Notes under the pieces: generated by a model
Database searches by the model: none
What the model was told of the DNA's origin: nothing
Seen by the model: only the letters and a program-made list of their open reading frames with translations
Shown here: piece by piece, positions 46,920-48,447 of the stretch
Layout: each line of letters begins with the position of its first letter
Position numbering within the stretch: position 1 is the stretch's first letter
Source of the DNA: Bergeyella sp.
Lineage (GTDB): Bacteria > Bacteroidota > Bacteroidia > Flavobacteriales > Weeksellaceae
Assembly (NCBI GenBank): GCA_030263285.1
Contig: SZYB01000001.1
Span: 556,911 to 620,910, forward strand
DNA length: 64,000 bases
Direction: 5' to 3'
Program-made: the position numbers and the translations under genes

Positions 46920-47339
46920 TCAAAAAATTTCCCTCTCAGAAAAATGAAACCGAGATTCTATTTTTGCATTCTCGTCTGAATCGGAACCATGTATTGCATT
47001 TTCTCCTACATTTCTGGCATACAACTTTCTAATCGTCCCATCTTCTGCCTGATCTGGATTGGTAGCCCCTATAAGTTTTCTAAAATCTTCTACTGCATTT
47101 TCTTTCTCCAATACTGCCGCAACTATAGGTCCACTACTCATAAAATCCACAAGCTCCCTGAAAAACGGGCGCCCTTTATGTACATCATAAAATCGCTCTG
47201 CATCGCTCACTGTAAGCTGAGTTTTTTTGAGTGCTTTGAACCTGAAACCCGCCTCCGCAATCTTCCCTAAAATAGCCCCTGTAAAACCTTGTTCTACCGC
47301 ATCGGGCTTTACCATAGTAAACGTTATCTTCCCTGACAT
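46920..47339 (-). CDS. ndk: nucleoside diphosphate kinase
   Basis: 139 residues; transfers the terminal phosphate between NTPs and NDPs through a phospho-histidine. It begins [20 protein letters not shown] and holds the active His117 in [15 protein letters not shown], with [17 protein letters not shown] (about 51-67). Length and motifs are normal. It stands alone between a decayed stretch and the orphan terminator unit upstream. Confidence 0.97.
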
Positions 47340-47417: not shown

Positions 47418-47425
47418 TATTTTTG
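47418..47425 (+). promoter_or_regulatory. -7 box TATTTTTG of an orphan plus-strand transcript
   Basis: TATTTTTG on the plus strand about 70 nt ahead of a strong terminator, with no long gene between. In an AT-rich gap this could be chance. Confidence 0.35.
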
Positions 47426-47429
47426 GCAC

Positions 47430-47516
47430 AAATATTGTTTTATTTAAAACGATTCTCATGTTTAATTTGAGTTTTCATGGTTATTAGTTTTTACCCAGCT
47501 CCGGCTGGGTTTTTTT
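47430..47516 (+). ncRNA. candidate small RNA or micro-ORF transcript between ndk and rsgA
   Basis: Predicted transcript of about 85 nt from the -7 box to the terminator, antisense in direction to both neighbours but lying in the gap between them. It includes a possible 9-codon frame at 47458-47487 (MFNLSFHGY, stop TAG) ending 5 nt before the terminator stem. A leader peptide would need a downstream plus-strand gene, and none exists. Expression is not shown. Confidence 0.35.
47493..47516 (+). terminator. strong orphan intrinsic terminator
   Basis: ACCCAGC (47493-47499), loop TCCG, GCTGGGT (47504-47510), then six more T. It works only on the plus strand; both neighbouring genes run on the minus strand. 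Confidence 0.8.
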
Positions 47517-47529
47517 GTTTTTTGTACTC

Positions 47530-48447
47530 TTAGCCTGCTTCTTCCAGAACATTCGTATAAGACTGATATCTAGACTTCGGAATCCTCCCCTTGTCTCTGC
47601 TTTCTATCACGGCACACTTTGGTTCGTTGGTATGTAAACAATTGCCAAACTTACAATCTTTTGCGTAAAAGAAAATTTCTGGAAAATAATTTTGTACCTC
47701 CTCCCTTTTTATGTCAATTATCCCAAATTCTTTCAACCCCGGAATATCAATCACACTTCCTCCAAAATCCCAAAAATACATTTGGGCAAAAGAAGTGGTA
47801 TGCCTTCCCTTTGCATTTGCATGAGATATCTCCCCTGTTTTTATATCAACCTGAGGCTGAATTCTTTGAATAAGGGTCGATTTTCCTACACCAGAATGAC
47901 CAAAAAAAACAGAAACTTTATGTGTAAGGTACCCCTTTATACTCTCTATATTTTTATTCGAAATACAAGAGATTTTTATCGTTTTATAGCCTATATTCCT
48001 ATAACTATTCTCTATGCCTTCTATCCATCCTAGTTCTTTTTCATCTAAAAGGTCTGTTTTATTAAACAAAATCAGTGGAGGAATACCGTAAGTCTCACAA
48101 CAGACCAAAAAACGATCCAGAAAACCCAAAGAAGTTTCCGGTAAACGTAGAGTAAATAAAAAACACGCAACATCTATGTTAGATGCAATAATATGAGACT
48201 CTTTTGAAAGATTTACCGATTTTCGTATAAGGTAGTTTTTTCGGGGTTGAATATCCACAATCCATGCAACCTTTTCCTTTTCCAACAAAAACTTCACTCG
48301 GTCTCCCACGGCCAAGGGATTGGTGAGCCTGTTTTTCAAGAGTTTAAACTTTCCTCTTATCCTAGCTTCAAAAACAAGGTTGGTACCAAGTTTTAAAACT
48401 TGGTACCAACTACCGGTAGACTTTATTATCAACCCTTCAAGGTACAT
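47530..48447 (-). CDS. rsgA: ribosome small-subunit-dependent GTPase RsgA
   Basis: Circularly permuted GTPase that checks 30S subunit maturation; 305 residues. An N-terminal OB fold (about 1-75) is followed by NKTDLLD (G4, about 130-136), FFGHSGVGKSTLI (G1, about 182-194) and the zinc module CKFGNCLHTNEPKC (about 263-276). Its ATG overlaps the aroG stop by one base (TAATG), indicating coupled translation. Codons about 13-23 contain a perfect 32-bp palindrome that changes the usual wording of this segment to SWYQVLKLGTNLV. Confidence 0.96.
   Translation of the reverse strand: MYLEGLIIKSTGSWYQVLKLGTNLVFEARIRGKFKLLKNRLTNPLAVGDRVKFLLEKEKVAWIVDIQPRKNYLIRKSVNLSKESHIIASNIDVACFLFTLRLPETSLGFLDRFLVCCETYGIPPLILFNKTDLLDEKELGWIEGIENSYRNIGYKTIKISCISNKNIESIKGYLTHKVSVFFGHSGVGKSTLIQRIQPQVDIKTGEISHANAKGRHTTSFAQMYFWDFGGSVIDIPGLKEFGIIDIKREEVQNYFPEIFFYAKDCKFGNCLHTNEPKCAVIESRDKGRIPKSRYQSYTNVLEEAG
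48379..48410. repeat. perfect 32-bp palindrome inside rsgA
   Basis: Left half GTTGGTACCAAGTTTT is followed at once by its exact reverse complement, with no spacer. It includes two GGTACC sites. The reading frame of rsgA stays open through it. Confidence 0.95.

Follow-up and report, generated by a model that had tools for sequence, protein, structure and literature searches.

The Qrr1-5 RNAs of Vibrio depend on sigma-54, LuxO and Hfq, and the enterobacterial sigma-E sRNAs MicA and RybB belong to a circuit in which an alternative sigma factor senses envelope stress and the sRNA lowers outer-membrane protein synthesis. Within the Bacteroidota, sRNAs with worked-out targets come mainly from Bacteroides, at least in the papers we compared. 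The FopS report describes 14 paralogous RNAs of ~65-70 nt in Bacteroides thetaiotaomicron that bind near susC-like start codons, and also reports the presence of FopS in a phage (PMC11697453). GibS is another Bacteroides sRNA that blocks ribosome binding (PMC7366714). For Flavobacterium psychrophilum, a published selection of sigma-54-type promoters places them in front of groESL, lon, dnaK, grpE-dnaJ, htpG, skp and clpB, as well as in front of genes for envelope or exported proteins and of a putative regulatory RNA, Rfp36, which falls into one expression cluster with exported-protein and gliding genes (PMC9723704).

Here we consider a short intergenic unit from Bergeyella sp., located in a 64,000-nt stretch of genomic DNA (the window). 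An earlier note, made from the letters of the window, had described it as an orphan promoter-terminator unit that might encode a small RNA or a micro-protein.

Results

A conserved intergenic unit between ndk and rsgA

The unit lies between ndk (46920-47339) and rsgA (47530-48447), both named by eye and both on the minus strand; as a plus-strand gene it is divergent from ndk and convergent with rsgA. The parts listed in the earlier note are present as described: a TAnnTTTG string (TATTTTTG, 47418-47425), a 9-codon frame from ATG to TAG (47458-47487, MFNLSFHGY), a GC hairpin (ACCCAGCTCCGGCTGGGT, 47493-47510) with a T run directly after it on the plus strand, and minus-strand neighbours on either side. 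Hairpin and U run form an intrinsic terminator that extends to 47516; on the minus strand, the hairpin lacks a subsequent T run. Region 47430-47519 folds better than 200 out of 200 shuffled versions of itself (z -3.28). We also noticed a 14-bp inverted repeat (GTTGGTACCAAGTTTTAAAACTTGGTACCAAC, 48379-48410) within the 5' coding part of rsgA, which scores terminator-like on the minus strand.

Comparison with relatives brings out a further set of plus-strand elements. A sigma-54-type promoter, TTGGCAC-AAATA-TTGT (47423-47438), has its -24 element at 47423-47429, where it overlaps the TAnnTTTG string, and its -12 element at 47435-47438; counting from the GG at -25/-24 puts the predicted +1 at ~47450, adjoining the first base (47451) of a 42-nt core (GATTCTCATGTTTAATTTGAGTTTTCATGGTTATTAGTTTTT, 47451-47492) that is nearly invariant across genera. 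According to RNA folds, the core begins with a 4-bp stem-loop, CUCA-N9-UGAG (47455-47471), followed by 21 single-stranded nucleotides that we propose as a seed (UUUUCAUGGUUAUUAGUUUUU, 47472-47492) and that are antisense to AAAAACUAAUAACC-AUG-AAAA.

When 191 bp of the intergenic region were searched against 59 related genomes (DNA, BLAST), the segment was recovered in 29 of 36 genomes of the same family at E<1e-9 (own genome included), and in 46 of the 59 at E<=0.01 if weak matches are counted. Among 80 named loci fetched through rsgA, 65 contain the exact 21-nt seed, with representatives from Chryseobacterium, Kaistella and Cruoricaptor; the fetched stretch lacks it in the other 15, Elizabethkingia and Riemerella among them. 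To see where conservation resides we took 29 copies that carry a sigma-54-type motif, after deduplication, and averaged pairwise identity segment by segment. The averages are 0.33 ahead of the promoter, 0.94 for the -24 element, 0.34 for the N5 spacer, 0.84 for the -12 element and 0.41 from promoter to transcript; they then rise to 0.91 across the 42-nt core, which is identical in 21 of the 29 copies, before falling to 0.52 for the terminator and 0.31 beyond it. Note that having the exact 21-nt seed and the fixed motif letters was a requirement for inclusion, and that this selection explains part of the core figure as well as the GGC and TTG letters; the BLAST and model matches are free of it. 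Likewise, the seed is invariant both in the 29 copies and in 36 aligned copies, sets that were chosen by the seed string.

Aligning the segment among relatives was one of the checks that the earlier note had proposed, and it reveals conservation well beyond the hairpin, namely in the 42 nt that precede it. The letters of the hairpin vary between genera, with its pairing and the T run retained; as codons, the nine triplets show no conservation. The unit itself is beyond chance; the TAnnTTTG box and 9-codon frame turn out to be by-products. Like trans-encoded intergenic sRNAs in general, it possesses its own promoter and terminator, a conserved non-coding core and no conserved ORF. Conservation, near-fixed spacing between promoter and terminator, and the existence of paralogues in arrays and phages (see below) argue for a small RNA gene, which on the evidence of sequence comparison is predicted to yield an RNA of roughly 67 bases between two ordinary genes, and we regard it as close to certain that the gene is real. 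The earlier remark that no target gene lies downstream is borne out at the locus; the RNA most likely acts in trans.

A sigma-54-type promoter

The element conserved upstream of the core, TTGGCAC-N5-TTG(T/C), has the layout of sigma-54 -24/-12 promoters, with the spacing between the -24 GG and the -12 element as it should be. In the window it is the sole match to TGGCAY-N5-TTG on either strand, and in ~364 kb of the same genome (G000) the sole match to TGGCAY-N5-TTGY. Two perfect TGGCAY-N5-TTGY sites occur in 300 kb of another genome (G502); at these densities (1 site per ~364 kb and 2 per 300 kb) no sigma-54 regulon can be drawn from the sampled stretches. The rpoN gene is found in 56 of 59 relatives' genomes and in 50 out of 50 complete ones, and the rpoN domain is present in the Bergeyella genome itself.

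Across the family, 150 of 179 distinct copies have the motif ahead of the seed, and they do so at preferred distances: 34 nt for most copies of type I (90 of 129) and 30 nt for most of type II (29 of 37; types are introduced below). The stricter pattern TGGCAY-N5-TTG precedes 38 of the 44 units fetched from type II and from genus g10. Within 144 motif copies, the letter before GGC is T in 142 and the letter after it is A in 143 (the pattern allowed A or T), whereas GGC and TTG are found in all 144 by virtue of selection; in the -12 element TTGT is commoner than TTGC. The -24 element reads TTGGCAC in g10 and TTGGTA (GGTA) in g21 and g28. In one set, 24 copies lack the motif; 15 of them come from phages, six are type I paralogues on chromosomes and the other three belong to type II. 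Judged from these regularities, the sRNA gene very probably has a sigma-54 promoter.

The TAnnTTTG box, which had been put forward as the promoter, does not qualify as that of the window copy: of 150 distinct copies of the sigma-54 type, just 10 have it at this place. Among chromosomal paralogues, four (two in L101, one each in L112 and L117) do carry the box close before the core, in place of the sigma-54 motif. Further upstream, a plus-strand TAnnTTTG box is found no more than 90 nt before the -24 element in 73 of 147 sigma-54-type copies (e.g. L010, L012 and L021), mostly at a distance of 41-45 or 69-71 nt, and an element resembling GAAAATTC no more than 60 nt before it in 30 of the 147; neither tally comes with a chance control. 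An upstream element of this sort might serve as an additional promoter or bind an activator.

Distribution, types and genomic neighbourhood

At E<=1e-4, a covariance model (R1) built from 36 copies (alignment A1) finds the RNA in 263 of the family's 296 genomes, which represent 27 of its 33 genera; a single genome has as many as seven copies. As an outgroup we drew 395 genomes from the class. Three of them are family members, and these have strong matches; the 392 from outside the family yielded no convincing match, with nine at E 0.002-0.01 against ~4 expected by chance.

Besides the form found in the window (type I), there are two diverged types, both with a sigma-54-like promoter. Type II is found in genus g16 and comes in tandem arrays of 11 units in ~2.2 kb (G502, L254), seven (G470, L259) or six units (G483, L253), most of which have their own sigma-54-type promoter. 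These three arrays adjoin genes that, by eye, resemble pncA and nicotinate phosphoribosyltransferase and are in that sense NAD-salvage-like. Type III is found in genera g10, g21 and g28. Copies from g10 were part of the training set of a second model, R2, and copies from g21 and g28 were not; run on the missing genera and on relatives from the order, R2 recovered type III in g21 and g28; 16 of its loci were inspected, and the other rows were weak. Genera g8, g18 and g29 had no clear member. L275 (G462, g29) and L286 (G017, g18) each hold a short unit in which a sigma-54-like TTTGGCAC-N5-TTG is combined with a terminator hairpin but the seed is missing; these units may be highly diverged or degenerate relatives.

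The more constant neighbour is ndk: for 64 of the 65 copies at named rsgA loci, and for 17 of 20 copies fetched by the sRNA region, it is no more than 1.5 kb away. The figures for rsgA are 61 of 65 (at loci themselves fetched by rsgA) and 10 of 20, respectively, making it less constant than ndk; where present, it is on the strand opposite to the sRNA in 71 cases out of 71.

In Rfam, no family reaches its gathering score in the window; five sub-threshold matches to the sRNA stretch were returned up to E 5, the best at E 0.1 and every one of them far below its cut-off. A literature search that included work on Chryseobacterium and Elizabethkingia, largely without subscription papers, found no description of such an RNA. 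As far as these searches reach, the family is undescribed, the kind of RNA being already known. On balance, we favour the view that this candidate sigma-54-dependent, trans-acting sRNA gene defines a new sRNA family spanning most of one bacterial family.

Structure is shared between types to a considerable degree. Types I and II both fold into a 5' stem-loop, a single-stranded stretch and a terminator, with a 5' stem of CUCA/UGAG in type I and AUUCAU/GUGAAU in type II. Other copies have a 7-bp AU-rich stem (L258), CUCAAU/AUUGAG (L120), a 7-bp stem in a viral contig (L333) or yet another paired sequence (L112). Since the letters of the stem differ and pairing is nonetheless present, pairing appears to have been kept between types. 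No covariation of the 5' stem was seen in alignment A1, where there is too little variation to count. In type III, part of the seed folds against a 5' extension.

Does the seed mirror a translation start?

What might such an RNA do? The reverse complement of the seed is an idealised start region, AAAACTAATAACC-ATG-AAAA (also written AAAAACTAATAACC-ATG-AAAA), and in Flavobacterium johnsoniae A at positions -3, -6, -12 and -13 goes with efficient initiation (PMC6847099). The likely action of an RNA whose seed is antisense to such a region is to block translation initiation. The scenario we have in mind runs as follows. RNA polymerase with RpoN and an enhancer-binding activator would make the ~67-nt RNA, perhaps under protein-folding or envelope stress, a context suggested by analogy with the sigma-54-type promoters of F. 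psychrophilum. The 5' hairpin and the terminator would leave the 21-nt seed single-stranded, free to pair across the start codons of mRNAs shaped like AACTAATAACC-AUG-AAAA, often those of exported proteins beginning MK, and pairing would then block ribosome binding, as with FopS and GibS in Bacteroides.

Several observations bear on this scenario. The three types differ in their seed letters, and the consensus keeps the antisense of ATGAAAA and A at -3 and -6. When scored with start-region matrices from two genomes, the antisenses of the types rank in the top 1-7% of all ATGs. In BLAST, some partial matches in antisense orientation fall on the start codons of signal-peptide-like genes, for example that of a DUF3575 protein in G031; an exact 14-mer antisense match was also seen in G010, at the start of a gene for an outer-membrane beta-barrel protein. 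A Pfam scan of ten candidate target proteins gave a match for three. In the Bergeyella genome, the only other exact 14-mer site starts a gene that looks coaD-like by eye and is not an envelope gene.

We then compared the number of potential target sites in 36 family genomes and 23 genomes outside the family, working from table sums after removing sRNA copies by position. The antisense 22-mer with up to three mismatches occurs 128 times in the family, or 91 times once 37 sRNA copies are removed, compared to 44 for a permuted pattern; outside the family the numbers are 34 and 31 (Fisher p 0.044). Exact 14-mer sites number 24 in the family, against 10 for the reversed control, and 5 against 4 outside; the contrast with the outgroup is not significant (p 0.44). 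For the 15-mer with one mismatch there are 44 matches versus 31 reversed in the family and 14 versus 24 outside (Fisher p 0.031), the count alone not being significant (p 0.17). Bear in mind that reversed controls contain no start codon and are hence lenient. Type II genomes show no enrichment of the type II pattern: it occurs there 16 times in 20.2 Mb, as opposed to 35 times in 66.5 Mb of type I genomes (p 0.18), and the reversed control gives 15 in the type II genomes; four further type II rows inside or beside arrays were dropped from this comparison as array units. Duplex energies are no better than those of shuffled seeds: against 259 start regions of its own genome the Bergeyella seed is equalled by 12 of 40 shuffled seeds, and the type II seed in G502 performs no better than shuffles (30 of 40 as good). 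In sum, the 22-mer, 14-mer and 15-mer counts lean weakly towards targets; the type II pattern and the duplex energies do not.

An RNA that is just as real could have an invariant core because that core binds a protein, for instance one of the RRM type or the ribosome, or because it sponges another RNA, the resemblance to a start region then being incidental. The seed is kept across some 26 genera, even though near-perfect mRNA sites are few per genome; duplexes between seed and starts are no stronger than those of shuffles; and four type II copies read TTTTCGT, so that their antisense has ACG instead of ATG and the complement of the start codon is lost. There is also a precedent in Bacteroides, where FopS is bound by RbpB (PMC11697453). 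If protein binding or sponging were the whole story, however, it would be surprising for three types with differing seed letters to retain, in consensus, an antisense of ATGAAAA together with a start-like upstream context. We consider this alternative unlikely, if the most serious of those we weighed. Pairing with translation starts remains our preferred reading, a reasoned proposal from the shape of the seed to which we would give an even chance of being correct; that its targets are mainly envelope proteins under stress is more doubtful and suggested only tentatively.

Copies in viral contigs

A scan of viral contigs returned 15 type I copies, spread over 14 contigs; every copy has the hairpin and T run, and the sigma-54 motif is missing from each. 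The contig stretches include tRNAs in 7 (ARAGORN) or 8 (Rfam) cases out of 14, and in L171, L174 and L175 the core begins right after the tRNA. Ten proteins were tested, and among those on L169, L171 and L175 there are matches to phage families such as portal, replication initiation, helicase and integrase. The type II pattern matches three viral contigs (L332, L333 and L334), of which L333 folds like a copy of the sRNA, its 7-bp 5' stem being accompanied by a terminator; type III was not found in the viral contigs. Named phage and plasmid records gave only weak matches to parts of the query, all short of 80% coverage; the strongest was a 43-nt partial match to a Chryseobacterium joostei plasmid.

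Two further features of these contigs deserve mention. In L332 (from 4130, plus strand) and L334 (minus strand), the start of the same 64-aa ORF (MKTIIKIGIITLIVIYLL...) matches the type II antisense exactly, with no hairpin, and is possibly a phage target rather than an sRNA copy. In six viral contigs (L168, L170, L173, L176, L177 and L180), an element resembling a hairpin, as judged by eye, sits ~45 nt before the core, after a called tRNA in five of the six; its arms vary but stay complementary, and its loop, similar to GTTAAACTACRGGAAATTG, is conserved; it is possibly an RNA element of its own.

Might the RNA owe its existence to an arms race between phage and host, captured by phages or derived from them, and directed at phage messages or at surface proteins through which phages enter? 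The viral copies, some directly behind phage tRNAs, the phage proteins on three of the contigs, the ORF start on L332 and L334 that equals the type II antisense letter for letter and the sRNA-like copy on L333 could all be accommodated by such a scenario. Yet in a collection this large the L332/L334 match could be due to chance, and the chromosomal copy beside ndk is widespread and equipped with a stress-type promoter. We think an arms-race role improbable.

The 9-codon frame

The earlier note had likened the frame to a leader peptide, a comparison that does not hold up, as the frame is not conserved as codons and no co-directional gene follows it; a leader peptide or attenuator was rejected on the same grounds. 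Of its two broader options, small RNA or micro-protein, only the former is backed by conservation, promoter, terminator and paralogues. A translated micro-protein or leader peptide might seem attractive given that the frame ends just before the hairpin and that, of 132 distinct copies of type I, 114 have all its nucleotides intact. It is the nucleotides that are conserved, though, and not the codons: one-base deletions or loss of the ATG destroy the frame in L017, L138, L101, L180, L009 and L118, all of which keep the seed, types II and III lack the frame altogether, and there is no target gene after it. With the frame broken and the seed intact, a protein product is unlikely, and we deem translation of the frame very improbable indeed. 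Finally, that the unit should be a mere terminator or roadblock that stops plus-strand transcription from running into rsgA, or should act on rsgA as an antisense RNA, is hardly credible: hairpin and T run do face the 3' end of rsgA on the plus strand, but conservation is strongest upstream of the hairpin, many copies reside elsewhere than beside rsgA, and no T run follows the hairpin on the minus strand.

Discussion

The sRNA gene described here would represent a compact family that is nearly universal in one family of the Flavobacteriales and links sigma-54 to an RNA, sigma-54 being a factor whose sites precede chaperone and envelope genes in a related flavobacterium. Copy numbers that range from 1 to 11, along with the copies in phages, make dosage and phage capture directly testable. 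The sRNA is also relevant to the question of how bacteria that lack Shine-Dalgarno signals select start codons and block them: if the proposal is true, its antisense amounts to a near-ideal translation start of a phylum without these signals, and the RNA itself would be a general 'anti-start' RNA. One might go further and imagine a family-wide, sigma-54-fired stress RNA of this kind that lowers the synthesis of AUGAAAA-starting, mostly exported proteins, whose output is scaled by arrays and which phages have captured behind tRNAs, so that tRNA processing releases the RNA. Taken as a whole, this extended model is speculative and we would not expect all of it to be right.

How does the RNA compare to known systems? 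Qrr1-5 resemble it in that they are paralogous sRNAs of a bacterial family driven by sigma-54; they differ in being quorum-sensing RNAs of another phylum. With MicA and RybB, what is shared is the proposed logic, which leads from an alternative sigma factor via an sRNA to less outer-membrane protein synthesis. Those two RNAs use a different sigma factor and are Hfq-dependent, and we know of no sequence relation to the sRNA examined here. Rfp36 of F. psychrophilum is similar in that it, too, is a flavobacterial RNA of putative regulatory function whose listed promoter is of the sigma-54 type (SM4; PMC9723704). Rfp36 was compared by description only; in the neighbouring family f3, the members that were sampled gave no convincing match to R1 (lowest E 0.005).

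By analogy, FopS is the nearest known system in its working. No Rfam match up to E 5 names FopS, and the two are set apart by description only. FopS RNAs are likewise short, multicopy RNAs from the Bacteroidota, reported from a phage too, with a single-stranded seed before a Rho-independent terminator, and their seed is aimed at the region of the start codon, something that we propose for the present RNA from its antisense shape alone (PMC11697453). FopS differs in having 14 copies in one genome, canonical sigma-ABfr promoters and a single-stranded 5' stretch (PMC11697453). The sRNA at this locus and its relatives, by contrast, have mostly sigma-54-type promoters (the motif in 150 of 179 copies rather than the sigma-ABfr type) and a stem-loop at the 5' end; one genus carries them in tandem arrays, and the copy next to ndk is conserved.
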